Origin: Mesorhizobium sp. RMAD-H1
GTDB taxonomy: Bacteria > Pseudomonadota > Alphaproteobacteria > Rhizobiales > Rhizobiaceae
Direction: 5' to 3'
NCBI RefSeq assembly: GCF_014191375.1
Contig: NZ_JACHWN010000007.1
Location: 248,001-312,000, forward strand
DNA length: 64,000 bases
Shown here: piece by piece, positions 9,423-21,056 of the stretch
Layout: the number at the start of each line of letters is the position of its first letter
Position numbering within the stretch: position 1 is the first letter of the stretch
Notes under the pieces: generated by a model
What the model was told of the DNA's origin: nothing
Seen by the model: only the letters and a program-made list of their open reading frames with translations
Database searches by the model: none
Program-made: the position numbers and the translations under genes

Positions 9423-9737
9423 GCTCCACCTATCATTCGCAGGAGAACCCCCAGCGTCACCAAGCTTCTGATAGAGCTCTACGGTGCTCACGACAAGGGC
9501 GGGCCCACAGACGTCCAGCCGAATGGCGGGTACATCACAGCCTTATCGCATCTCTTTCACATGTATTCGGGCATTGCAGTCGAACGTCTCGAAAACCTTC
9601 GAGCGCCCACGTGACTAGAAAGACAGTTCAAAGGGGGGACCAAATTTAAAATTCCTTTTCTCTATAGATTTAGTAGAATTAACTAGCCTGATCCTATTCC
9701 GATGCACATCCGTGCGAGCGATGAAAGGACAGGTTTC
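9423..9737. other. Divergent intergenic region before the sulfur locus
   Basis: About 315 bases between the hydrolase and the FMN reductase. The AT-rich part at 9640-9690 stands out from its G+C-rich surroundings and contains an Rrf2-box candidate. Small open frames here show no protein-like signature. Confidence 0.5.
9662..9677 (+). promoter_or_regulatory. Rrf2-box candidate, copy 1
   Basis: CTATAGATTTAGTAGA contains the inverted repeat TCTA-N9-TAGA (from 9661). It is 60 bases upstream of the FMN reductase start. The same 16-bp pattern recurs at 17550-17565 (minus) and 20939-20954, all in the sulfur locus, which encodes one Rrf2-type regulator. Confidence 0.6.
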
Positions 9738-10379
9738 ATGACTGCGCCCACGATCATAGGAATATCCGGCAGCTACAGCTACCCTTCGCGCACCCGTGCT
9801 CTGGTAGCAGATATCGCCCACAGGGCAGCACAACGCTATTCGCGGCGCGCGCAGGTCTACGATCTATCGCAGTTCGGCTCCTCCCTGGGAGCGGCGCGCA
9901 AGCTGTCCGATCTTGACGAAAGCGCCAGGCGGATCGTCATACAGATGGTTGAAGCGGAGGCGCTGGTCGTCGCCAGCCCCGTGTACAAGGGCAGCTATAC
10001 CGGCCTCTTCAAGCATCTCATCGATCTCCTGGATCCCACGGCATTCGTCGGAAAGCCGATCCTGCTTGCGGCAACGGGCGGCGGCGACAGGCATGCCCTG
10101 GTGATCGAGCATCAATTGCGTCCGCTCTTCGGCTTCTTCGAGGCACGAACGCTGGCGACAGGCATCTATGCCGCAGAACGGGACTTCGCCGAGGGTTCGG
10201 TCTCGCCGGCGCTTGCCGAGCGGCTGGCGCGCGCGATCGAGCAGTTCACTCCTTATCTCGCGCGTCGGGAGGTAACCCATGCGGGAGAGCCGAACACCAG
10301 CACCCAAAGGGTGAATGGCACTCATGACCAGGCCGTCCGGCAGGGTGCGCAGGCTCCCATCTCCGCTCTGCGGGGCTGA
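9738..10379 (+). CDS. NAD(P)H-dependent FMN reductase (SsuE/MsuE-like)
   Basis: A 213-residue flavodoxin-fold reductase that would supply reduced FMN to the LLM monooxygenases encoded downstream. The FMN phosphate-binding start is I-G-I-S-G-S-Y-S-Y-P-S-R-T, matching the S-P-R-x-P-S-R-S region of SsuE. The family signature A-S-P-V-Y-K-G-S-Y-T-G and L-L-A-A-T-G-G follow. The ATG at 9738 is preceded by AGGACAGG and gives the normal N-terminus; an upstream in-frame ATG at 9702 adds 12 unrelated residues. It is the first gene of the sulfur operon, followed 39 bases later by the ABC permease. The last ~25 residues are polar and probably disordered. Confidence 0.88.
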   Translation: MTAPTIIGISGSYSYPSRTRALVADIAHRAAQRYSRRAQVYDLSQFGSSLGAARKLSDLDESARRIVIQMVEAEALVVASPVYKGSYTGLFKHLIDLLDPTAFVGKPILLAATGGGDRHALVIEHQLRPLFGFFEARTLATGIYAAERDFAEGSVSPALAERLARAIEQFTPYLARREVTHAGEPNTSTQRVNGTHDQAVRQGAQAPISALRG

Positions 10380-10418
10380 CCGGTCGCACATCATCGCATT
10401 CAGGAAGAGGAGGCCGAT

Positions 10419-11375
10419 ATGACCCGGCAGTTCACACAGGGCGCGTTTCTCCCGGGCGGCGAGCAGCCCGTCATGGCATGGCAGCATCTGGATCAGGCGG
10501 CGGATAGGGAAACGAATATCGGCTCCCGCAAGAATGCGGTTCGAGCCGATCAGGTAAGGCAAGCACGGCAAGACGGAGGCCGGTTTTCGCCGAGAACCCT
10601 GTCTGATCGCGAAATGCTGGCCGTCTCGTGGCTCGCACCGGTTCTCGTGGTGCTTGCCTGGGAAGGTCTTTCCGGGATCGGCTACATCAATCCGCAGATC
10701 CTGCCATCCCCCAGTGCCGTTCTGGGCACGGCACTCACATTGATATCGAACGGAACCTTGCCGGAGCATCTGGGCTATAGCCTGCTTCGGGCAACGGTCG
10801 GCTTTGCCATCGGGGGCGGCATCGGCTTCGTGCTCGGCGTGCTTGTCGGGTTCTCGCGTATTGCGGAAGCCGCCCTCGACAGATCGATCCAGATGATCCG
10901 CGCAATCCCTTTTCTTGCGCTGCTGCCACTCGTCATCATCTGGTTCGGGGTCGATGAAACCGGTAAGATCTTTCTCGTCTCCCTCGGAGTGATGTTTCCG
11001 ATCTACATCAACACGGTGCTCGGCATCCGGCAGGTTGATCCCAAGCTCCTGGAGCTTGCGCAGGTGACCGGACTTTCGGTTCGCCAGCGGATCACACGGA
11101 TCATCCTGCCGGGTGCGATGCCCTCGATCCTGACAGGGGTCCGATACGCCCTTGCCGTCGCCTGGCTCGCGCTGGTGATCGCCGAGACCATCGCCACCAC
11201 AAAGGGGATCGGCTTCCTGGCAATGGATGCGCGGGAATTTCTCCAGACCAATGTCATCGTGCTGACCATCGTCATCTACGCCGCTATCGGCGTCTTCGCG
11301 GACGGCCTGGCCCGGTTCCTCGAGAAAAGGCTGCTCGCATGGCACCCGAACTACGCAATAGGGGAAAACCGATGA
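10419..11375 (+). CDS. ABC transporter permease, SsuC-like (sulfonate type)
   Basis: A 318-residue inner-membrane permease of the nitrate/sulfonate/taurine importer family. About 60 polar residues precede the first membrane helix (A-V-S-W-L-A-P-V-L-V-V-L-A-W-E), longer than usual for SsuC (~263 residues), so an internal start is possible, but GAGGAGG sits just upstream of the chosen ATG. The EAA loop that contacts the ATPase is visible as L-A-Q-V-T-G-L-S followed by I-I-L-P-G-A-M-P. It overlaps the ATPase gene by four bases (ATGA). Substrate: an organosulfur compound, inferred from neighbours. Confidence 0.9.
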   Translation: MTRQFTQGAFLPGGEQPVMAWQHLDQAADRETNIGSRKNAVRADQVRQARQDGGRFSPRTLSDREMLAVSWLAPVLVVLAWEGLSGIGYINPQILPSPSAVLGTALTLISNGTLPEHLGYSLLRATVGFAIGGGIGFVLGVLVGFSRIAEAALDRSIQMIRAIPFLALLPLVIIWFGVDETGKIFLVSLGVMFPIYINTVLGIRQVDPKLLELAQVTGLSVRQRITRIILPGAMPSILTGVRYALAVAWLALVIAETIATTKGIGFLAMDAREFLQTNVIVLTIVIYAAIGVFADGLARFLEKRLLAWHPNYAIGENR

Positions 11376-12076
11376 GCACACATAACGCCGCAGTCATGGT
11401 CCGCGGTCTTCGCCGTCAATATGGCGAGCGGGTTGTCATCAACGGGCTTGATCTGAGAATCGAGATTGGCGAGTTTGTCGCCCTGCTTGGAGAAAGCGGA
11501 TGCGGCAAGACCACTCTTCTGCGCGCTCTTGCCGGTCTCGATCCTATCGACGGCGGTACCATTGATGGGCCATCGCAGCCAGCGGTGGTGTTCCAGGAGC
11601 ACCGTCTGCTGCCCTGGGCTCCTCTTTGGCGCAACGTCGCCCTGGGAATGGAGACCCGGGAAGGCAGGAGGCAAGCCGAGGCGGCGCTTCGCGAGGTAGG
11701 CCTCGGCGGACGTGAGAACGACTGGCCGCGCAACCTCTCGGGAGGTCAGGCGCAGCGCGTGGCGCTCGCCCGTGCGCTGGTCCGTGAGCCGAAGCTCCTG
11801 CTTCTCGACGAGCCTTTCGCGGCGCTTGATGCCCTGACCCGCATCAAGATGCACGGCCTGGTCAAGGAACTCGTCAGCACGCACCGACCAGGGGTGCTTC
11901 TGGTCACGCATGATGTCGATGAAGCGATCGCCATCTCTGATCGCATCCTCGTCATGCGGGCGGGCGCGATCGCGGCATCTCACCACGTGGGCGCCGATAC
12001 GCCTGCCGGGCGGCTCGCATCGCGGCAAAGATTGCTCAGCGAACTTGGAGTGGAAGCGCCCGGACACGCTGCCTGA
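11372..12076 (+). CDS. ABC transporter ATP-binding protein, SsuB-like
   Basis: A 234-residue ATPase of the sulfonate/taurine/nitrate importer type. Walker A is G-E-S-G-C-G-K-T-T-L-L, the ABC signature is N-L-S-G-G-Q-A-Q-R, Walker B is K-L-L-L-L-D-E-P-F-A-A-L-D and the switch His is in L-L-V-T-H-D-V-D-E-A. It starts at an ATG overlapping the permease stop; a longer frame upstream would run into the permease and is rejected. It would energise uptake with the adjacent permease and binding protein. Confidence 0.93.
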   Translation: MSTHNAAVMVRGLRRQYGERVVINGLDLRIEIGEFVALLGESGCGKTTLLRALAGLDPIDGGTIDGPSQPAVVFQEHRLLPWAPLWRNVALGMETREGRRQAEAALREVGLGGRENDWPRNLSGGQAQRVALARALVREPKLLLLDEPFAALDALTRIKMHGLVKELVSTHRPGVLLVTHDVDEAIAISDRILVMRAGAIAASHHVGADTPAGRLASRQRLLSELGVEAPGHAA

Positions 12077-12132
12077 GGCGCGCATTTCGGCGAGCCGGAA
12101 CTTCTCAAATACCCTGAATACTGGAGATGAAC

Positions 12133-13140
12133 ATGATTGAGACAACGTCCCTCCCCATCGGCCGCCGTCGCTTCATTCAGGCAATGATGCTGGTGGCCGG
12201 TTCCGGTGCGCTGGCCGGCCTGCTGCCTGAAAACGGCTACGCCGAAGGCGCCCGCAACACGGATACCGTCCGGCTCGGCTGGGGACGCGGAGGTCTGCCG
12301 CTGATCGCACGCCAGCGCGGTGAATTTGAGAAAAGGCTTGCCGATCAGGATATCAAGGTCGAATGGGTCGGCCCTTTTCCAAATCACGCGCCTTCGCTTC
12401 AGGCCGTCGTCGGTGGCAGCGCCGATTTCGGCTTCTGGGGCAGCACCACGCCGGCGCTTGCGGCCATTATCGCGGGATCGCCATTGGTCTTCACGCAGTT
12501 CAACGTCTATAGCCCTCGCACGACCGCGATCATCGTCAGGAAAGATTCCGGCATCAACAATGTGAAGGAACTGGTGGGCAAGAAGGTCGCCGTCAACCGG
12601 TCGGGTCTGGGAGAATTCCTTCTGGTCGCCGCTCTCGAAAAGCATGGCGTCGATCGCAATACGGTCGAATTGGTTTATCTCAATCCCCCTGATGCGTCGC
12701 CTGCATTCGGGCAAGGCCGTGTCGATGCCTGGTCGATGTGGACGCCCGCTGTCGACATCGCGCGCGAGCAGTACGACGCCAAGAACATCTTCTTTGAAGG
12801 GACGGATCTCGATTTTCTGATCGACTATTCGTCGCTGGTCACGCTGCGCAGCTTCGCCACGGACAACTCAGCGCTCGTCCATGCCGTAATCGCTGCCTAT
12901 CGACAGGAGGGAGAGTGGATCAGCAACAATGTGCTGGAGGCCGAGACCATCGCCCAGCGCGAAGGCCAATACAGTGACGCTGTCCGCGATCATCTCGCGA
13001 GCTATAGGCGCGTGAATTACTTCTACGAGGCCGACGACCCGGCGTTTCTCGCCGATTTCCAGAAAGCCGCGGATTGGCTGGCCGAACGCGCAATCCTGCC
13101 GCAGCGTGTCAAGGTCGCCGATCACGTTGTGCGCGTCTGA
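12133..13140 (+). CDS. Periplasmic sulfonate-type substrate-binding protein, SsuA-like
   Basis: A 335-residue binding protein with a probable Tat-type signal: the twin-arginine stretch G-R-R-R-F-I-Q precedes a hydrophobic core and an A-E-G cleavage region near residue 40. The mature part has the SsuA/NMT1 pattern V-R-L-G-W-G-R-G-G-L-P-L-I-A, with Q-A-V-V-G-G-S-A-D-F-G-F-W-G and K-K-V-A-V-N-R-S-G. It would deliver an organosulfur ligand to the upstream permease. ATGs at 12127 and 12133 are both in frame; GGAG abuts the first and is well spaced for the second, so 12133 is preferred. Confidence 0.9.
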   Translation: MIETTSLPIGRRRFIQAMMLVAGSGALAGLLPENGYAEGARNTDTVRLGWGRGGLPLIARQRGEFEKRLADQDIKVEWVGPFPNHAPSLQAVVGGSADFGFWGSTTPALAAIIAGSPLVFTQFNVYSPRTTAIIVRKDSGINNVKELVGKKVAVNRSGLGEFLLVAALEKHGVDRNTVELVYLNPPDASPAFGQGRVDAWSMWTPAVDIAREQYDAKNIFFEGTDLDFLIDYSSLVTLRSFATDNSALVHAVIAAYRQEGEWISNNVLEAETIAQREGQYSDAVRDHLASYRRVNYFYEADDPAFLADFQKAADWLAERAILPQRVKVADHVVRV

Positions 13141-13197
13141 TCCGTAGCCGGTTGCCGCCTTTGCCAATCATCAATTCCTTCAACCGGAGCCATTGAA

Positions 13198-14562
13198 ATG
13201 CCCTCTCCCAAGTCTGTCCGTCTTGGTGTCAATGTTCTGGCCTCGGGCCGGCACGATGCTGCCTGGAAAACCTTGCCCGCTCCCAGGAGCGTTTCCACCG
13301 ATATTGATGAATTCATCCGGATCGCGAGGCTCGCCGAGCGCGGCAAGCTCGACGCGCTGTTCCTGGCCGACGGCCCCGGTGGCCTTGTCGACGAGTCTTT
13401 TTACCGTCCCTGGCGGGCGCTTGACCCCATCACGCTGCTTTCAGCCCTGAGCCAGGCGACAAGCCATATCGGCCTTGTCGCCACGACATCCACCATCTTC
13501 GGCCATCCCTACGTGGTCGCCAGGCAGATCGCCTCGCTCGACCATATCAGCAAGGGTCGGGCGGCCTGGAATATCATCACCAGCCAGACGCCCGTTGCTC
13601 TTGCCGCCTATGGCGTTGAAAGCGGCTTCAACCAGGATGAACGGTATTGCCGCGCCTCGGAATTCGCGGAGATTGTCACCGGCCTGTGGGACTCGTTACC
13701 CGACGCAGCCATCGTCGCCGACGCGGAACGACACGTCTTCGTCGATGAGACCGCTCTGCGGCCGATCGATGTCAGCGGCAGCCATTTCAGGTCCAAAGGC
13801 GTCCTTTCGGCTCCGGTGACTCCGCAAGGGCGCCCGGTCATCTTTCAGGCCGGACAATCGGAGGACAGCAAGGCCTTCGGTGCCCGCTATGCCGATGTGT
13901 TGTTCACGGGCCAGCGTCTTATCGAGAGGGCGCGAGAGTTTTACAGCGATGTCAAGGCGCTGGCGCTCGGCAACGGGCGCAGTCCGGACCAGTTTCTCGT
14001 CATGCCCGGTCTCTTCCCGATCATCGGCAGCACCGAGGCCGAGGCTCACAAACGCAAGGCGGAGCTCGATGCCGGTCTCGACATCGGGTTTCTTCACCAG
14101 GAACTGGCACGCCATTTTGCACTGGAGCCTGACGACCTCCCGCTCGATGCGCCGCTGCCTTATGACAAGATCGACGCGGCGGAGCCGCGCGTCCCGATCG
14201 CGTCGAGATGGCCGCGCAAGCAGATCCTGTCGGAAGCCACCCAGTACGGGTGGACGGCACGCCAGGCGGCGCTCAGCAACATCATCGGCGGGCACCGCAT
14301 GTTCGTCGGCACGCCGGAGCAGTTCGTCGCGGATATGCTGACTTGGATCGATACTGCCGCTTGCGATGGCTTCAATCTCAATATCGACATCCAGACCAGC
14401 GGGCTTGAGGACATCGTCGACGAGGTCATTCCGCTGCTTCAGAAAGCGGGGCGTTTCCGGCACGACTATGCCGGGCAGACACTGCGTCATCACCTTGGCC
14501 TCAACCATTATGTGGATCCGCGCGATGCCGCGCCGATCGCCCATACCGGGTCGGGAGGTTGA
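13198..14562 (+). CDS. LLM-class FMNH2-dependent monooxygenase (NtaA/SnaA/DszA family)
   Basis: A 454-residue bacterial-luciferase-like monooxygenase. The start V-R-L-G-V-N-V-L-A-S-G-R-H-D-A-A-W, A-R-L-A-E-R-G-K-L-D-A-L-F-L-A-D and S-K-G-R-A-A-W-N-I-I-T-S are signatures of the NtaA/SnaA/SoxA/DszA family, whose members use FMNH2 and O2 to cleave C-N or C-S bonds or oxidise sulfones. The length fits the family. It lies directly after the transporter and before the DszC-like gene, so C-S cleavage of the imported compound is the likely role, with reductant from the operon's FMN reductase. The precise substrate is unknown. Confidence 0.88.
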   Translation: MPSPKSVRLGVNVLASGRHDAAWKTLPAPRSVSTDIDEFIRIARLAERGKLDALFLADGPGGLVDESFYRPWRALDPITLLSALSQATSHIGLVATTSTIFGHPYVVARQIASLDHISKGRAAWNIITSQTPVALAAYGVESGFNQDERYCRASEFAEIVTGLWDSLPDAAIVADAERHVFVDETALRPIDVSGSHFRSKGVLSAPVTPQGRPVIFQAGQSEDSKAFGARYADVLFTGQRLIERAREFYSDVKALALGNGRSPDQFLVMPGLFPIIGSTEAEAHKRKAELDAGLDIGFLHQELARHFALEPDDLPLDAPLPYDKIDAAEPRVPIASRWPRKQILSEATQYGWTARQAALSNIIGGHRMFVGTPEQFVADMLTWIDTAACDGFNLNIDIQTSGLEDIVDEVIPLLQKAGRFRHDYAGQTLRHHLGLNHYVDPRDAAPIAHTGSGG

Positions 14563-14571
14563 AAGCGAAAA

Positions 14572-15822
14572 ATGCTGCAAACCGCATCACCAAAGCCCTC
14601 GCCACTTCATGCCGATCGCTGGAGCAGCGTTACCCGCCGGCTCGGCTTCGCGGACCTGTTCGAAGCATTCTCTTCAGGGGCGGCGCAACGCGATACTGCC
14701 CGCCAGCCGATCTTCGAAGAGGTGGCGGCTCTGAAAGCCCGCGGATATGGGGCGCTCCGCCTGCCTGAAACAGAGGGCGGCAAGGCGATTTCACTCCCGG
14801 AACTCTTTGCATTGACACGCGATCTCGCTTTTGCTGACCCCAATATCGCGCATGTCTACCGCAACCATTTCTTCGTCGTCGAACAGCACCTGCAGTCGCC
14901 CGACGCACCGCTTGCCAGGCGCGTTCTGGATCTGATTGCGCAAGGGGCGATGTTCGGCGTGGCATTTTCCGAGGCCGGCGGTGGGCCGGCAGGCAGCCGC
15001 GGCCAGGTGCCTGGCGCAAGATTGCAATGGTCGCAGAGTGATGGTCTCTACCGGATTTCCGGCAGGAAGATCTACAGCACCGGCAACATGTATGCCGATT
15101 ATCTCTTTTCATCGGCCATCGATGAACGGAGCGGGGATATCGTGCAATTCCTGGTTAGGACCGATACCACCGGCGTGGTGCTCGACGACGATTGGGATGG
15201 GTTCGGCCAGAAGCTGACAGGCTCTGGCACGACCATACTCAACGACGTCGCCATTTCGCCGGCGGATATTTTCAAGGTGAACGAGCCACGGCCGGACGAA
15301 CCGTACCTCTATGGCTTCACCTTCCATCAGATATATTTGACGACGATCATCTCCGGGATCGTGACCCGTGTGCTGCACGATGCATTGGCAACCATTCGCG
15401 GTCGCACGCGTAATTTTTATCACGGGCTTGCGGATCATCCTTCCGGAGAGCCGGAAATCCAGTCCGTGATCGGGCGCATCGCCGCATTCCGCTCCGCCAT
15501 CGTTGCCGTCGTCGACCGCGCGGTGCAGGCGCTGAATGCGGCATGGGCAGGCGCGAAAGGCAGCGAGGCGGAAGGGCTGTCGATCGCAGCCAGCATCGCA
15601 GCGGCCGAAGCAAAGGTTGTCACCGACGAGGTCGCCGCCAATTTGGCAAGTCTGCTGATCGATATCGGCAGCGGCAGCGCGGTCTCCACGGCAAAGGCCC
15701 TGGACCGGCACTGGCGCAACATCAAGGTCATCGCCTCCCACAATCCGCGCATCTACAAGGAGCGCGTCATTGGTGATCACTACCTCAATGGCTCTCTGCC
15801 GCCTACCGGCGCTTTCTTTTGA
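14572..15822 (+). CDS. Acyl-CoA-dehydrogenase-fold monooxygenase (DszC/SfnB-like)
   Basis: A 416-residue flavoprotein with the acyl-CoA dehydrogenase fold. It resembles the DszC/SfnB branch, which uses reduced flavin and O2 rather than acyl-CoA. Visible blocks are L-A-F-A-D-P-N-I-A-H-V-Y-R-N-H-F, G-A-M-F-G-V-A-F-S-E-A-G-G-G-P, the middle-domain I-S-G-R-K-I-Y-S-T-G and the C-terminal helix bundle ending R-I-Y-K-E-R-V-I-G-D-H. It sits 9 bases after the LLM gene, and GGGAGG precedes the start. Probable role: oxygenation in organosulfur degradation paired with the LLM enzyme, both fed by the FMN reductase. Confidence 0.85.
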   Translation: MLQTASPKPSPLHADRWSSVTRRLGFADLFEAFSSGAAQRDTARQPIFEEVAALKARGYGALRLPETEGGKAISLPELFALTRDLAFADPNIAHVYRNHFFVVEQHLQSPDAPLARRVLDLIAQGAMFGVAFSEAGGGPAGSRGQVPGARLQWSQSDGLYRISGRKIYSTGNMYADYLFSSAIDERSGDIVQFLVRTDTTGVVLDDDWDGFGQKLTGSGTTILNDVAISPADIFKVNEPRPDEPYLYGFTFHQIYLTTIISGIVTRVLHDALATIRGRTRNFYHGLADHPSGEPEIQSVIGRIAAFRSAIVAVVDRAVQALNAAWAGAKGSEAEGLSIAASIAAAEAKVVTDEVAANLASLLIDIGSGSAVSTAKALDRHWRNIKVIASHNPRIYKERVIGDHYLNGSLPPTGAFF

Positions 15823-15847
15823 GCAATAAAGTTAAAAGGGTTTAGGA

Positions 15848-17440
15848 ATGACCAGGACGATTACGGCGCAAGAGGTTCGCGCATTCTGGCGTGATGGCCG
15901 CGAAATAGCTGTTCTCGACGTTCGCGAGGAAGGGCCCTATGCGCAAGCGCACCCGTTTTTCGCCGTCAGCTTGCCGGTGAGTGAAATCGAAAGGAACCTT
16001 CCCGGATTGGTGCCGCGCCTCTTCGCCCCCATCGTGGTCTATGACGATGGAGAGGGTTATGCAGAGCGTGCGGTCCGGCGGATCAAAGCGCTTGGATATA
16101 GCGACGTCGCCGTTCTGGCTGGCGGCCTGTCGGCTTACGCCCGCGTCGGAGAGCTTTATCGCGACGTCAACGTGCCTTCCAAGGCGTTCGGCGAGCTCGT
16201 GGAAGCGATCTGTCATACGCCCTCGCTGCCGGCGAAGGATGTGAAGCGTATCCTCGAAACGGAAGAGAACGTCGTCATCGTCGATGCACGGCGTTTCGAG
16301 GAGTTCAACACCATGAGCATCCCGCGCGGACGCAGCCTGCCGGGCGGAGAACTGGTCTACCGCATCCAGGATATCGTCTCCTCCCCTGATACGCTCGTCA
16401 TCGTTAATTGTGCCGGGCGCACCCGCAGCATCATCGGCACGCAGAGCCTGATTAACGCCGGCTTTCCCAACCGCGTGGCCGCTTTGCGAAACGGTACCAT
16501 CGGCTGGACGCTGGAAGGGCTGCAACTGGAAACCGGGCAAACGGCCAAGACACCGGAACCGTCTGAGGCGGCGCGATCCGAAGCCAAACGGCGCGCCGCG
16601 CGCTGGGCGCAGCACGTGGGTGTGCCGATCATCGCTGCCGACGATCTCGCCCGTTTTCGCGCGGAGGCAGAAGACAGGACGCTTTACACGCTCGATGTGC
16701 GCGATCCTGACCAATATCATAAAGGACATCCCAGCGGCTTTGCCTCCGCACCCGGAGGACAATTGATTCAGGCAACGGACGAATGGCTCGGCGTTCGCGG
16801 CGCGCGCGTTGTTCTCTATGACGATGACGGCGTCCGCGCCAGGATGACGGCGTCATGGCTGTTGCAGATGGGATGGGATGCATATGTGCTGGAAGAGGGC
16901 GCCGTCGTTCCGGAAGTCTTTCAAACCCCCAAATCCGCCCTGGTTCCCGATTTTCCCAAGGCATCGATCACCGCCGCGGAATTGCGGAATGCAAGAGACG
17001 TGGTGATCGTTGACCTTGCGCGTAGCACGACCTATTCCCGGGGTCATATTCCCGGAGCGTGGTTCGCTTCAGGTCCGGAACTCGCGCGCGACATCGCCGG
17101 ATTGGGGGATAAAGGGCGGATTGTCCTGACATCGCCGGACGGTGATATCGCTGCGTTCAATCTGCGGGAGTTGCAGGAGAGTTCAACGCGGGAAATTGCA
17201 TATCTTGAAGGCGGAACCCGTGCCTGGACCGCTGCGGGATTTCCGCTTGAAACCGAGCCGAGATGGCTGTCAGATCCGATCGATGTCTACAAGCGGCCCT
17301 ATGAAGGGGTCGACAATGCACGCGCCAATATGCAGGGCTATATCGAATGGGAGCTGCAATTGGTCGCGCAACTGGCCAATGATGGCGTTTCGAGATTTCA
17401 CGTCATCCGTAATGAACCCGGCCAGCCCGCCGAGCGTTGA
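15848..17440 (+). CDS. Four-domain rhodanese-like sulfurtransferase
   Basis: A 530-residue protein made of four tandem rhodanese domains, roughly residues 1-105, 120-235, 250-365 and 370-475. Only the second has the catalytic cysteine loop (V-N-C-A-G-R-T-R, Cys188). The equivalent loops in the first and third have D-D instead (Y-D-D-G-E-G; Y-D-D-D-G-V) and the fourth has S-P-D-G, so these are probably structural or binding domains. Rhodaneses transfer sulfane sulfur to thiophilic acceptors, and this one could handle sulfur released by the monooxygenases. AGGA lies before the ATG. It appears to be the last gene of the 9.7-17.4 kb operon. Confidence 0.88.
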   Translation: MTRTITAQEVRAFWRDGREIAVLDVREEGPYAQAHPFFAVSLPVSEIERNLPGLVPRLFAPIVVYDDGEGYAERAVRRIKALGYSDVAVLAGGLSAYARVGELYRDVNVPSKAFGELVEAICHTPSLPAKDVKRILETEENVVIVDARRFEEFNTMSIPRGRSLPGGELVYRIQDIVSSPDTLVIVNCAGRTRSIIGTQSLINAGFPNRVAALRNGTIGWTLEGLQLETGQTAKTPEPSEAARSEAKRRAARWAQHVGVPIIAADDLARFRAEAEDRTLYTLDVRDPDQYHKGHPSGFASAPGGQLIQATDEWLGVRGARVVLYDDDGVRARMTASWLLQMGWDAYVLEEGAVVPEVFQTPKSALVPDFPKASITAAELRNARDVVIVDLARSTTYSRGHIPGAWFASGPELARDIAGLGDKGRIVLTSPDGDIAAFNLRELQESSTREIAYLEGGTRAWTAAGFPLETEPRWLSDPIDVYKRPYEGVDNARANMQGYIEWELQLVAQLANDGVSRFHVIRNEPGQPAER

Positions 17441-17549
17441 TCTGCTTCGCGGGCGGACTGAGCGGCACGACACACGCTTAGCCCGCCAATGAGTGCGGTT
17501 TTCGTCCGTACAATTGCGATATTACGGAAATCCAATGATTTCGGTCTTG

Positions 17550-17565
17550 TTTAGTACATTTATAG
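17550..17565 (-). promoter_or_regulatory. Rrf2-box candidate, copy 2
   Basis: On the minus strand this reads CTATAAATGTACTAAA, aligning with the copies at 9662 and 20939. The outer arms read GTCTA-N9-TAAAC, one mismatch from a perfect inverted repeat. It lies in an AT-rich patch 110 bases upstream of the Rrf2 gene and after the rhodanese gene, as expected for autoregulation. Confidence 0.6.
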
Positions 17566-17674
17566 ACTTTATGTCTCCGACAGGTCATGCGGCGGTCGGG
17601 GCGAACTGTCGATATGCGCAGGAAGAACGACGCCGCGCCCGGCGATTCCCACTTTCCGATATCGAAATCTCGAG

Positions 17675-18139
17675 ATGCTCACCAGAAAAGGCAAATACGG
17701 CCTCAAGGCACTTGTTCACCTCTCGGAAATCCCGGTGGGAAAACTCGCCTTGGTCAATGAGATCGCCGTTGCCAATAATATTCCCAAGAAGTTTCTCGAC
17801 GCCATTCTGGGTGAGTTGCGCAATGCCGGCTTCGTCCAGAGCCGGAAAGGACGGGAGGGCGGATACCGGCTGGCCCGCCCGGCCAGCGAGATCAAGATCG
17901 GCCACGTCATTCGCGTCCTTGATGGTCCGCTTGCGCCTATCCCGTGTGCCAGCCGCACCCGGTATGAACCTTGTGACGATTGCGACGAGGCCACATGCCA
18001 CGTCCGTTATATGATGCTGGAAGTGCGTCAGGCCATGGCCGATGTACTGGACAACCGGAGTCTCGCGGAAATGCGAGATATGTTCGGTCGCGAAGAGATC
18101 GACATCGATGCTGCTGCGGACCTGAAATACAACATCTGA
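17675..18139 (+). CDS. Rrf2 family transcriptional regulator with four-cysteine loop
   Basis: A 154-residue Rrf2-type winged-helix regulator. The DNA-binding domain starts M-L-T-R-K-G-K-Y-G-L-K-A-L and contains the recognition region I-P-K-K-F-L-D-A-I-L and the wing R-K-G-R-E-G-G-Y. Cys91, Cys100, Cys103 and Cys108 (C-x8-C-x2-C-x4-C) sit where IscR and NsrR bind an Fe-S cluster, though the spacing differs from IscR. Known Rrf2 members sense Fe-S status, nitric oxide or cysteine supply (CymR), so a sulfur- or redox-status sensor fits the locus. No good ribosome-binding site is seen. A shared 16-bp element occurs at three promoters around it. Confidence 0.9.
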   Translation: MLTRKGKYGLKALVHLSEIPVGKLALVNEIAVANNIPKKFLDAILGELRNAGFVQSRKGREGGYRLARPASEIKIGHVIRVLDGPLAPIPCASRTRYEPCDDCDEATCHVRYMMLEVRQAMADVLDNRSLAEMRDMFGREEIDIDAAADLKYNI

Positions 18140-18173
18140 GGCTGCCCGATGGCGGCGGCCAGAGGGCCCTGCC

Positions 18174-19550
18174 ATGAGCGACGAGCACAATTCCCGGCGA
18201 TTGTCGATTATCATTATTGGCGGGGGGGCGAGCGGCGTCGTCCTTGCGGCGCACCTGCTGCGGCAGTCGAAGACAGATCTCCGTGTCACGCTGATCGAGA
18301 AGCGTCCCACCTTTGGTCAGGGAGTGGCGTACTCCACCCCTTTTTCGGATCACGTCCTCAACGTCACCGCACTCGGGATGAGTGCTTTTGCCGACGATCC
18401 CGAGCACTTCTGGCGCTGGCTTCTGAAGCGCGGCTTGGCACAGCCGGACAAGCCGCAGACCTATGTGCCCCGGTACGTCTATGGCGATTATCTCGCCGAC
18501 ATTCTGGATGACCTCCACCGCAGCCACGCGACAACGGGCCGGCTGCATCTGGTAAGGGAATTTTGCACCGCAATTGTACCAACGCCTTCGGGCGTCGAGG
18601 TCCAGCTTTCCAATGGCTCCAGCTTCATCGGGCATGTGGCGGTTCTTGCTGTCGGACATGAGGAGGAGCCCACGCGGGGAAACAGTGTCAAGCCGGGCTC
18701 GGCGGCCGATACGCCGCTCGATCCGGACGATCATGTCCTGGTCCTCGGTACGGGGCTGTCGATGGTCGATACCTGGCTTTTGCTCGAGCGCCGCGGTCAT
18801 CGCGGCAGGATCACCGCGCTGTCGCGACGTGGGTTGCTTCCATTGGCCCACCATAACAGCAAGCCGATCCGTCTCGATTCGGCCGACATTCCGCTGGGAA
18901 CGGAGTTGTCGTATTTCGTGAGATGGTTTCGCGATCTGGTGCGCGACACGGAACGAGCCGGCGGTGACTGGCGCGACGTGGTCGATGGCCTTCGCCCCTT
19001 CAACCGCCAGATATGGCAAAGTTGGCCGGCCAGCGCAAAACGCCGCTTCATCGAGCACACCCGCGCATGGTGGGATATTCATCGCCATCGCATGCCGCCC
19101 GAAATCCACGCAAGGATTTCGCAGGCCGTGGTGTCCGGTCGCCTCGAACCGAAAGCCGGAAAACTGCTCGGCACGCAACCCGCAGGCGACCGCGTCCTGG
19201 CGACCATCAGACCCCGTCATCAGATGAGCACCGAGACGATCGAGGTCGCCCGCATCTATGATTGCACAGGGATAAGCGCCGATCGCTCGAACAGCTCCAA
19301 TCCGCTCGTCCGCTCATTGGTAAATCGCGGGATCGCGAAACCGGATCCGTTGCGCATAGGCCTGGACGTGACGTCCGATTGTGCGGTCATCGACAACAGC
19401 GGCATTGCCTCGGGGCGCCTGTTTGCCGTCGGTCCGCTGACGCGCGGCACCTTCTTTGAGATCGAGGCGATACCTGACATAAGGGTTCAGTGCGCCACTC
19501 TCGCGGAACTGCTGACGCACCGGGAATTGTCGATGAGGCGCAGCCTGTAG
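18174..19550 (+). CDS. FAD-NAD(P)-binding protein
   Basis: A 458-residue flavoprotein. The N-terminal dinucleotide fold is I-I-I-I-G-G-G-A-S-G-V-V-L-A, followed by the G-Q-G-V-A-Y-S-T-P-F-S-D-H-V-L-N-V block typical of the NAD_binding_9 (FAD-NAD(P)-binding) family. A second nucleotide motif, V-L-G-T-G-L-S-M-V-D, is in the middle, and A-V-G-P-L-T-R-G-T-F-F closes the FAD site near the C-terminus. Members are related to flavin-containing monooxygenases and lysine/ornithine N-oxygenases. It lies 34 bases after the Rrf2 gene with AGAGGG before its start, so it is probably co-transcribed. Oxidative sulfur metabolism is inferred from the neighbourhood only. Confidence 0.8.
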   Translation: MSDEHNSRRLSIIIIGGGASGVVLAAHLLRQSKTDLRVTLIEKRPTFGQGVAYSTPFSDHVLNVTALGMSAFADDPEHFWRWLLKRGLAQPDKPQTYVPRYVYGDYLADILDDLHRSHATTGRLHLVREFCTAIVPTPSGVEVQLSNGSSFIGHVAVLAVGHEEEPTRGNSVKPGSAADTPLDPDDHVLVLGTGLSMVDTWLLLERRGHRGRITALSRRGLLPLAHHNSKPIRLDSADIPLGTELSYFVRWFRDLVRDTERAGGDWRDVVDGLRPFNRQIWQSWPASAKRRFIEHTRAWWDIHRHRMPPEIHARISQAVVSGRLEPKAGKLLGTQPAGDRVLATIRPRHQMSTETIEVARIYDCTGISADRSNSSNPLVRSLVNRGIAKPDPLRIGLDVTSDCAVIDNSGIASGRLFAVGPLTRGTFFEIEAIPDIRVQCATLAELLTHRELSMRRSL

Positions 19551-19566
19551 GCGGCACATTCAACCG

Positions 19567-20598
19567 CTATGTACGCCAGGCCTTCTGTCGAAGGCCCCGC
19601 CAGCCGGCAATGCCGGCCCGCCTGGCCGGCACCCCTGCATCGATTGCGCCTGCATGGTCGCCTGCTCGCGCACGGGCAGCTGAGCGGCGGACCATAGGAA
19701 CCAGTCGATGGGTGAAAAGCGCCAGGCTCTTGGCGGCATGCAGTCCGTGAACGACGAACTCCGCTATGCCGAGCGCATGGTAGTCGAGCAGCGCGCGAGC
19801 GATCTCTTCAGGCGTGCCGATGAGCCGCATGGCTTCCGGGCGCCCCCTATCGGGCAGAGCCGGTTTCCGTTCCGCCCTTCGCCAGGCCTCGTCGCGCGTC
19901 TCGCCGAGAACCACCATGACCGGAAAGGAGAAACCGATCTTGTCTGCACGGCCGAAATTGGCCGCCGCCTCGCGAACCCGCATCATCATCGAACGCGTCT
20001 CCGATATGGTGCCGGGCGGAAGAGTGAAAATGTCGGCGTGCTTGGAGGCCAGCTTGACCGCAAGCCCCGAACGTCCGCCCATATGCAAGGGAATGAGCGG
20101 GCTTTGCCGCGGCTTCACCCCGCAGAAGCCGTTCCTGATGCTGTAATAAGGCCCCTCGTGATCGAACGGCTTCTCGTTGAGCCAAAGCCGTTTCAAAAGG
20201 ACCAGATATTCATCGGCCCTGGCGATGCTCTTCTGGTGATCGAGCCACTCCCAATTCGCTGAGGGACCGGGCTCGCCGCCTGGAAAGATCCGGATAGCCA
20301 TCCGGCCATTGCCAAGCTGGTCGAGGGATGCAAGCTGGCGAGCGGCGATCACCGGCTCGAGCGGCCCGACGCAATGTGACACCAGCACGCCGGGGCCCGA
20401 CCTGCTGGCCAGGGCAAAGGCGGCACGGCTGTGATTGTCCGGCAGGTCAGGAGGACCGTCGATCGCTATCCGGTCCAGGCCTGGCCACTCCCCACCCTTC
20501 TGGCCATAAGCCGCAGAGGTCTGTTTGGCGAAACTGCGCGATTTCCCATCGTAGAACGTTGTCCAACACTCGGGGCCACCGGTGAACGTGATTGGCAT
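19567..20598 (-). CDS. LLM-class flavin-dependent monooxygenase (SsuD-like)
   Basis: A 343-residue luciferase-like enzyme of the alkanesulfonate-monooxygenase type. Visible features are G-P-G-V-L-V-S-H-C-V-G, L-A-S-L-D-Q-L-G-N-G-R-M-A-I-R-I, and Y-L-V-L-L-K-R-L-W with G-P-Y-Y-S-I. Together with the FMN reductase it would desulfonate alkanesulfonates (FMNH2 + O2, releasing sulfite). The ATG at 20598 was chosen because GGAGGAG lies 7 bases upstream; an in-frame ATG at 20613 overlaps that site. The C-terminal ~45 residues are Arg/Ala-rich and unlike SsuD. It is convergent with the FAD-NAD(P)-binding gene, with 16 bases between stops. A promoter and Rrf2-box candidate are about 300-350 bases upstream. 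Confidence 0.85.
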   Translation of the reverse strand: MPITFTGGPECWTTFYDGKSRSFAKQTSAAYGQKGGEWPGLDRIAIDGPPDLPDNHSRAAFALASRSGPGVLVSHCVGPLEPVIAARQLASLDQLGNGRMAIRIFPGGEPGPSANWEWLDHQKSIARADEYLVLLKRLWLNEKPFDHEGPYYSIRNGFCGVKPRQSPLIPLHMGGRSGLAVKLASKHADIFTLPPGTISETRSMMMRVREAAANFGRADKIGFSFPVMVVLGETRDEAWRRAERKPALPDRGRPEAMRLIGTPEEIARALLDYHALGIAEFVVHGLHAAKSLALFTHRLVPMVRRSAARARAGDHAGAIDAGVPARRAGIAGWRGLRQKAWRT

Positions 20599-20904
20599 GA
20601 TGAACTCCTCCATTCCTCAGGCGTTCATATTCTTCGCCGACGCAGTTCAACTGGCCGGCTCACCAAGGAAGATGTGACCAGGAAAGTTTCAGATAGCCCT
20701 CGTTGCATTCGGAATGCGGATCGCTATCCCGCATCCGCGGGCTGATGACCACGGCTCCATCGGAGATCGAAAATGCCCGGGCATGTCTCGACCAGAGCCG
20801 TTTCAGCAGAACGGGGATCTTCACGCACCTAAACACGCCATTATCGCCTCCTCCGTTGATCCAGGTATGGGTCAGGCGTTCAGCCGTATTCATGGACCTT
20901 GGGA
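20599..20904. other. Long untranslated leader of the LLM gene
   Basis: About 300 bases between the proposed promoter and the LLM start. A 77-codon minus-strand frame (20893 to 20660) could encode a leader peptide but has only a weak AAGG site and no recognisable sequence. A regulatory leader is possible given the length. No known riboswitch consensus was recognised. Confidence 0.3.
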
Positions 20905-20932
20905 AGTATGGCACATGAGAAAGTGATGTCAA
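20905..20932 (-). promoter_or_regulatory. Candidate sigma-70-type promoter of the LLM gene
   Basis: On the minus strand, TTGACA (20932-20927) is separated by 16 bases from CATACT (20910-20905). The -35 hexamer is a perfect match and the -10 matches at four of six positions. The Rrf2-box candidate begins 7 bases upstream of the -35 element. Confidence 0.5.
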
Positions 20933-20938
20933 TAAAGT

Positions 20939-20954
20939 CTATAAAATAACTAGA
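20939..20954 (+). promoter_or_regulatory. Rrf2-box candidate, copy 3
   Basis: CTATAAAATAACTAGA; with flanks it forms the perfect inverted repeat GTCTA-N9-TAGAC (20937-20955). This is the most symmetrical of the three copies. It lies immediately upstream of the TTGACA element of the LLM-gene promoter, a position more typical of activation than of simple promoter occlusion. Confidence 0.65.
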
Positions 20955-21056
20955 CATTAGGTCAGGTTCAGTGCCAGCCCGGCAAACGCCTTTGAGCAGG
21001 GCTTGATTGAACTCATCCGGCCCCTCTGCCGGCCCGCACCGCCTGCAGCTAAACGG

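Follow-up and report, generated by a model that had tools for sequence, protein, structure and literature searches.

Predicted operators of a CymR-like Rrf2 regulator at sulfur-acquisition genes of Mesorhizobium sp. RMAD-H1 and related Rhizobiales

The window analyzed here, a stretch of 64,000 nucleotides from the 5.14-Mb genome of Mesorhizobium sp. RMAD-H1 (G000:C7:248001-312000), contains a sulfur locus in which three similar inverted-repeat sites precede an organosulfur operon, a gene for an Rrf2-family regulator (rrf2) and a gene for an SsuD-like monooxygenase. Between 9.7 and 20.6 kb the genes are arranged as msuE, ssuC, ssuB, ssuA, a DmoA/NtaA-family gene, an SfnB-like gene and a gene with four rhodanese stretches, then rrf2 and a gene for a flavoprotein-like product, with the SsuD-like gene on the opposite strand. 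We consider the three sites as predicted operators of the Rrf2 protein encoded among these genes.

The organosulfur operon begins with a gene for an MsuE-type flavin mononucleotide (FMN) reductase (9702..10379, +; TIGR03566, 222.2 bits, cut-off 212.5), the true start of which, judged by the extent of the FMN_red match, is probably the ATG at 9738 and not 9702. Downstream are genes for an SsuC-like sulfonate ATP-binding cassette (ABC) permease (10419..11375, +; NF008470, 283 bits, under the cut-off of 347), an SsuB-like ABC ATPase (11339..12076, +; NF008420, 219.6 bits, under the cut-off of 395) and an SsuA-like substrate-binding protein (12127..13140, +; TIGR01728, 156.8 bits, slightly below the cut-off of 163.5). 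These are followed by an NtaA/DmoA-family FMN-dependent monooxygenase (13198..14562, +; TIGR03860, 420.7 bits, cut-off 279.7), an SfnB-like oxidoreductase of the acyl-CoA-dehydrogenase fold (14572..15822, +; TIGR04022, 237.7 bits, under the cut-off of 430.9) and, last in the operon, the protein with four rhodanese stretches (15848..17440, +; PF00581). Adjoining rrf2 is a gene for a flavin adenine dinucleotide (FAD)/nicotinamide adenine dinucleotide (phosphate) (NAD(P))-binding protein (18174..19550, +; PF13454), homologs of which (61-67% identity) are encoded in site or rrf2 loci of relatives (L125, L144, L147, and L202). The SsuD-like luciferase-family monooxygenase is encoded at 19567..20613 (-; PF00296; TIGR03565, 91.3 bits, under the cut-off of 518.2).

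The rrf2 gene (17675..18139, +) encodes the proposed repressor (PF02082, 1.9e-34), which passes the superfamily cut-offs (PF02082, 119.1 bits, cut-off 30; TIGR00738, 114.8 bits, cut-off 73.3); its nearest named relatives are from Mesorhizobium, mostly at 86-88%. The predicted structure (mean predicted local distance difference test score, pLDDT, 87.3) has a winged helix-turn-helix and a long dimerization helix (helices 4-17, 27-34, 38-50, and 109-126; strands 54-57 and 63-66). Its fold matches are CymR, RsrR, IscR, and NsrR, and the top match in the PDB is CymR (2y75; query template-modeling score 0.70-0.74, 30-31% identity). The equivalog cut-offs were missed for CymR (NF047409, 82.1 vs 195 bits), IscR (TIGR02010, 63.0 vs 207.55), RirA (NF008886, 59.8 vs 193), and NsrR (NF008240, 64.9 vs 182). 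Four cysteines (Cys91, 100, 103, and 108), invariant in 21 homologs (one of them from class B, defined below), lie in the loop before helix 109-126; Fe-S Rrf2 regulators have three cysteine ligands before the dimerization helix, whereas the window protein has four cysteines there. We infer that the four cysteines would sense reduced sulfur, via an Fe-S cluster or as thiols.

The initial annotation had placed three related 16-bp sequences at 9662-9677 (+), 17550-17565 (-), and 20939-20954 (+), where they are indeed found, and the perfect GTCTA-N9-TAGAC that it described around the third is borne out (20937-20955). As 25-bp sites scored with the symmetric matrix described below, predicted operator 1 (TTTCTCTATAGATTTAGTAGAATTA; 9657..9681, +; score 33.5) is upstream of the msuE-ssuCBA-dmoA-sfnB-rhodanese operon, predicted operator 2 (17546..17570, -; score 20.7) is upstream of rrf2, and predicted operator 3 (20934..20958, +; score 31.8), which contains the perfect repeat, is upstream of the SsuD-like monooxygenase gene, 325 bp from its start. 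Site 2 is the weakest, one half-site being degenerate (TTTA where TCTA is expected). The consensus TCTATARANNNASTARA has exactly three perfect matches in the 5,140,609-base genome, namely the three window sites, which span 11.3 kb, so the motif does not occur at random frequency. Across the whole genome there is no match with one mismatch, and two mismatches are found at 10 places elsewhere; the backward control pattern has 79 matches at up to two mismatches. Scanning the window with the derived consensus at up to three mismatches gave four matches, against a shuffle mean of 0.76. Since the consensus was drawn from the three sites themselves, relatives serve as the independent evidence.

A fourth site in the same genome, AAATCCTATAAGATTTATAGAGTAA (C4:262850-262874; score 25.5), lies approximately 240 bp upstream of a cysG match. 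Weaker matches at C12:6899, C5:304831, and C1:476367 (scores 17-19.5) have no core gene (as listed below) in their 3-kb loci and were not counted as sites, and core sulfur or rrf2 genes are near none of the 21 weaker matches of this genome (3-kb loci). A cysK-like fragment, identified by eye, lies about 1.2 kb from the C5:304831 match; the core-gene test did not include cysK.

For comparison across relatives, 297 genomes of the family were divided by their best match to the window Rrf2 into class A (best E-value ≤1e-45; n = 130), class B only (42-49% identical; n = 25), and those without an Rrf2 match at 1e-24 (n = 142). The exact pattern occurs at 51 sites in 42 of the 297 genomes, against 32 for the backward control (approximately 1.6-fold; hand count). 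A total of 34 of the 130 class-A genomes, representing 19 genera by hand count, have sites ending in TAGA, against a single genome among the 167 others; this 1.2-Mb genome (locus L129) belongs to the 142 without an Rrf2 match, and none of the 25 class-B-only genomes has such a site. TAAA-type sites lack the palindrome, and six of the seven genomes that hold only these are without class A. The backward control pattern is uncoupled from Rrf2 (7 of its 27 genomes are class A). In a second sample, taken at the order level (Rrf2 threshold 1e-40), sites were found in 14 of 58 Rrf2-positive genomes (6 of the 14 already in the first sample) vs 2 of 239 others; outside the family the figures are 5/46 and 2/238, a single genus accounting for four of the five.

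The shape of the site was derived from 41 sites (40 of TAGA type) in genomes with an Rrf2 match. The flanking triplets, which lie outside the searched pattern, are A or T at 236 of 246 positions and symmetric about the center, and position 10 prefers T (31/41). Conservation and symmetry extend to the right half and to the flanks on either side, and the imperfect 25-bp palindrome WWWN-TCTAYW-N5-WRTAGA-NWWW has the look expected for a site bound by a dimer. Sites face both ways relative to genes.

The genes around the sites were compared at 48 sites of relatives, with eight set aside as background: seven come from genomes in which no Rrf2 match reached 1e-24, and the other (L131) is an intragenic site of TAAA type. 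Seven of these eight end in TAAA, and the eighth (L129) ends in TAGA. Core genes (homologs of ssuA/C, dmoA, ssuD, msuE, sfnB, cysH/D/G, or rrf2) are present within 3 kb of the site in 31 of the remaining 40 TAGA-type loci and in none of the background loci, and the proposed clustering of the motif at sulfur genes is thereby upheld; restricting the references to those taken from the window leaves 26/40. The cysH, cysD, and cysG reference proteins were taken from L148 and L157, so these two loci match by construction. Products of the cysH, cysD, cysN, and cysG types adjoin sites, as judged by Pfam. Outside the family, class-A genomes have homologs of ssuA, sfnB/dmoA, or ssuD within 1.5 kb of 8 of their 11 sites, whereas neither of the two sites in genomes without class A has one.

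At six further loci (L135, L137, L138, L139, L153, and L172) the sites are in or beside peptide-type ABC transporter operons, most with luciferase-family monooxygenases; these operons are possibly for the uptake of some sulfur source. In L144, L146, and L202 a frame of approximately 50 codons with a hydrophobic end (...VLGLIP or VLGFVA) lies between the operator and the ssuD-like gene; no such frame was seen among the three frames of the window between operator and ssuD-like gene.

To score sites at Rrf2 loci we used a symmetric matrix trained on sites of the family only, with a threshold of 15. It was positive at 16 of the 27 class-A loci, each of 3 kb, and at 70 of 80 Rrf2 loci of up to 16 kb (77 of the 80 titled Mesorhizobium), and reversed sequences gave none in either set; none of these 27 or 80 loci contains a site of the training type. 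The motif is thus conserved together with Rrf2 in relatives. Among class-B contexts the matrix was positive in 0/9. In a further set of contexts (L049-L068), 8 of 20 were positive vs 2 of 20 reversed, and one of the positives (L049) is itself a training site. The site is typically 5-7 kb upstream of rrf2 in the Mesorhizobium loci. In L173 it heads the sulfate-transport genes sbp-cysT-cysW-cysA, downstream of which are another gene for a sulfate/thiosulfate-binding protein and then rrf2; the longest frame of the first gene starts 12 bases upstream of the site and matches its family from residue 48 onward. Conversely, clustering places rrf2 in 9 of the 48 sixteen-kb site loci, and tblastn adds a tenth (L125).

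These sites are a real, conserved and symmetric family, with their occurrence tied to an Rrf2 clade and their position to sulfur genes. The non-random frequency, the coupling with Rrf2 and the clustering at sulfur genes support the initial proposal that the window sites serve as operators for the product of the Rrf2 gene at 17675, and we regard it as likely, from comparison of sequences, that this protein represses sulfur acquisition in Rhizobiales in the manner of CymR and probably controls its own gene as well. An Rrf2 dimer would bind the imperfect 25-bp palindrome, which would overlap or adjoin the promoters of operons of sulfonate and sulfone type, of the SsuD-like gene and of rrf2, with the fourth site before cysG (siroheme synthase). 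With ample reduced sulfur the Rrf2 protein would block transcription, and when reduced sulfur is scarce the repression would be lifted. We infer both the binding by the window Rrf2 and repression rather than activation. In at least L127, L132, L164, L165, and L166, a purine-rich stretch resembling a ribosome-binding site and an ATG follow within 21-31 nt downstream of the site. An operator in this position is expected to cover part of the promoter or the transcript start, which fits repression; other sites, including window site 3, are farther from called starts.

Several observations weigh against this reading. By sequence, the nearest solved protein is a tie between Thermincola potens IscR (4cic) and CymR. 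The association of the TAGA site with class A (Fisher test, 9e-13) sets class A against all other genomes and ignores phylogeny, and 96 of 130 class-A genomes are without an exact TAGA site under this strict pattern. Within the genome of the window itself, a relaxed palindrome at up to two mismatches is not enriched (85 places vs 109 for the control); the signal resides in near-perfect sites. By the test used, a core gene is absent from 9 of the 40 positive loci, and 4 of the 40 sites fall inside crudely called reading frames (L133, L134, L136, and L163). As for autoregulation, weak matches (score ≥9) lie 107-126 bp before rrf2 in L018, L113, L115, L116, L119, and L122-L124, close to where site 2 sits in the window (129 bp). 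These are 8 of the 30 family orthologs (Rrf2 ≥75% identical; 0 reversed), and none of the 80 mostly Mesorhizobium Rrf2 loci has such a match. These counts weaken the support for autoregulation and make it patchy, so that it is plausible for a subset only. In L161 and L162 an exact site lies between a class-B Rrf2 gene (43-44%) and the divergent cysH and cysD, and site-like matches occur at class-B loci L043 (18.1) and, with another matrix, L260 (16.0) and L262 (18.5); class-B Rrf2 may bind a related site. The genomes of L161 and L162 also carry a class-A Rrf2, and class-B Rrf2 (42-49% identical) was rejected as the binder of the TAGA site itself by the 0/25 count in class-B-only genomes. Finally, a 70% identical class-A paralog in the own genome could share the sites.

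This paralog (L046; G000:C9:256795-257193) differs from the window Rrf2 in its recognition region and wing (IPRKFLDN and GGGFCLA), and we think it unlikely that the sites are its operators, or common to both paralogs. Beyond the existence of this second copy in the same genome, the cysG site speaks for it: this site looks like a hybrid (TCCTA...TAGA) of TCTA-N9-TAGA with CCCA-N9-TGGG, the latter being the form in two congeners whose sole copy is C9-like. In five congeners (L305-L309), drifted palindromes lie approximately 185-250 bp before cysG, two of which read TCCCA-N9-TGGGA (L308 and L309); the Rrf2 copies of congeners resemble the C9 paralog, and the only class-A copy found there is C9-like. 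This gives a hint, from one locus only, that operator and paralog drift together. However, exact sites occur in none of four sampled congeners that have only the C9-like copy, the 20 kb around the C9 paralog contain no site with a score of ≥15, and site 2 directly precedes the window rrf2, at the position where 8 of 30 orthologs have a weak match.

A LysR-type sulfur regulator (CysB- or LsrB-like) is a still less probable binder of the sites. LysR regulators, to which the classical regulators of sulfur genes elsewhere in Proteobacteria belong, follow a T-N11-A rule that the TCTA-N9-TAGA geometry also meets. We also count in favor of such a regulator the cys gene changes reported in a study of LsrB and OxyR in Agrobacterium (PMC11975290). 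Against it, a phmmer search with one query (1e-6), which may miss distant LysR proteins, found only three LysR genes across the 40 positive 16-kb loci, each in a cluster of its own, whereas an Rrf2 gene is present in 9 of 48 site loci; site occurrence tracks class-A Rrf2.

We rejected both the possibility that the sites are merely promoter elements and the possibility that they are alike by chance, on the grounds of symmetry, class-A coupling and proximity to sulfur genes. The alphaproteobacterial -10 element is CTATAT, the left half of the site (CTATAR) is -10-like, and the sites are in AT-rich spacers; however, a -10 element of AT-rich promoters would explain neither the conserved and symmetric right half and flanks, nor the two orientations relative to genes, nor the tie to sulfur genes and Rrf2, and we give this explanation very little credence. 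Chance likeness of three AT-rich spacers can practically be dismissed: it is true that the three sites themselves supplied the consensus and that the TARA pattern is only about 1.6 times its backward control in the 297 genomes (51 vs 32), but the excess is of the TAGA type and nearly confined to class-A genomes, matrix matches lie near Rrf2 genes, and the order-level sample gives the same coupling.

More speculatively, class-A Rrf2 proteins might be master sulfur repressors of Rhizobiales, with a clade-wide regulon of genes for organosulfur scavenging, siroheme synthesis and the transport and reduction of sulfate, four-cysteine sensing (Fe-S or thiol), and duplicated regulators that have drifted to TCTA-N9-TAGA vs CCCA-N9-TGGG within a genus; we hold this wider proposal to be possible rather than probable. 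No description of a Rhizobiales regulon of this kind surfaced in the full-text literature, judged mainly from listings, and a database prediction may exist; the portions available of PMC11975290, PMC9973013, PMC4618611, PMC8557817, PMC4344238, and PMC5382811 do not describe it. For the control of sulfur genes in Mesorhizobium and relatives, the analysis offers a candidate regulator, an operator and a list of genes. The operator lets sulfur-scavenging genes without a known substrate be grouped, and the Rrf2 protein is one in which sensing may depend on cellular sulfur and not on iron.

Among known systems, the LysR regulators CysB, Cbl, and SsuR control comparable gene sets, mostly as activators, but belong to a protein family unrelated to Rrf2. 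RirA and IscR of Alphaproteobacteria share with the window protein the Rrf2 family and cysteines in the same loop, and in the RirA box TGA-N9-TCA the half-sites are spaced as in TCTA-N9-TAGA. However, RirA and IscR serve iron or Fe-S regulons and have three cysteines, whereas the window Rrf2 has the arrangement C-x8-C-x2-C-x4-C and scores weakly against their models. RisR of Myxococcus, for which cysteines 92, 102, and 108 are given as likely ligands, is also a repressor and belongs to an Rrf2 subfamily (PMC9973013); it controls Fe-S assembly operons and has three cysteines, where the window Rrf2 has four. Outside Firmicutes, IGTS8_peg394 of Rhodococcus qingshengii is a CymR/Rrf2 candidate that has been put forward, from proteomics and similarity, as regulating sulfur metabolism globally, and the immediate neighborhood of its gene encodes no sulfur metabolism proteins (PMC8557817); it is from Rhodococcus and not Rhizobiales, and the passages of PMC8557817 consulted give no operator. 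The likeness to CymR, the global Rrf2-family repressor of cysteine metabolism in Firmicutes, lies in the Rrf2 fold and a sulfur-acquisition regulon: CymR is the best-scoring equivalog model for the window Rrf2 (82 bits), and the position of the sites alone would give a CymR-like regulon of ssu, dmoA, msuE, sfnB, cysH-D-N, cysG, and sulfate-transport genes. The CymR operator differs from the window Rrf2 sites, and CymR acts in complex with CysK. The window Rrf2 also differs from CymR in having an invariant set of four cysteines in the loop that leads to helix 109-126, and the two proteins belong to different organisms.

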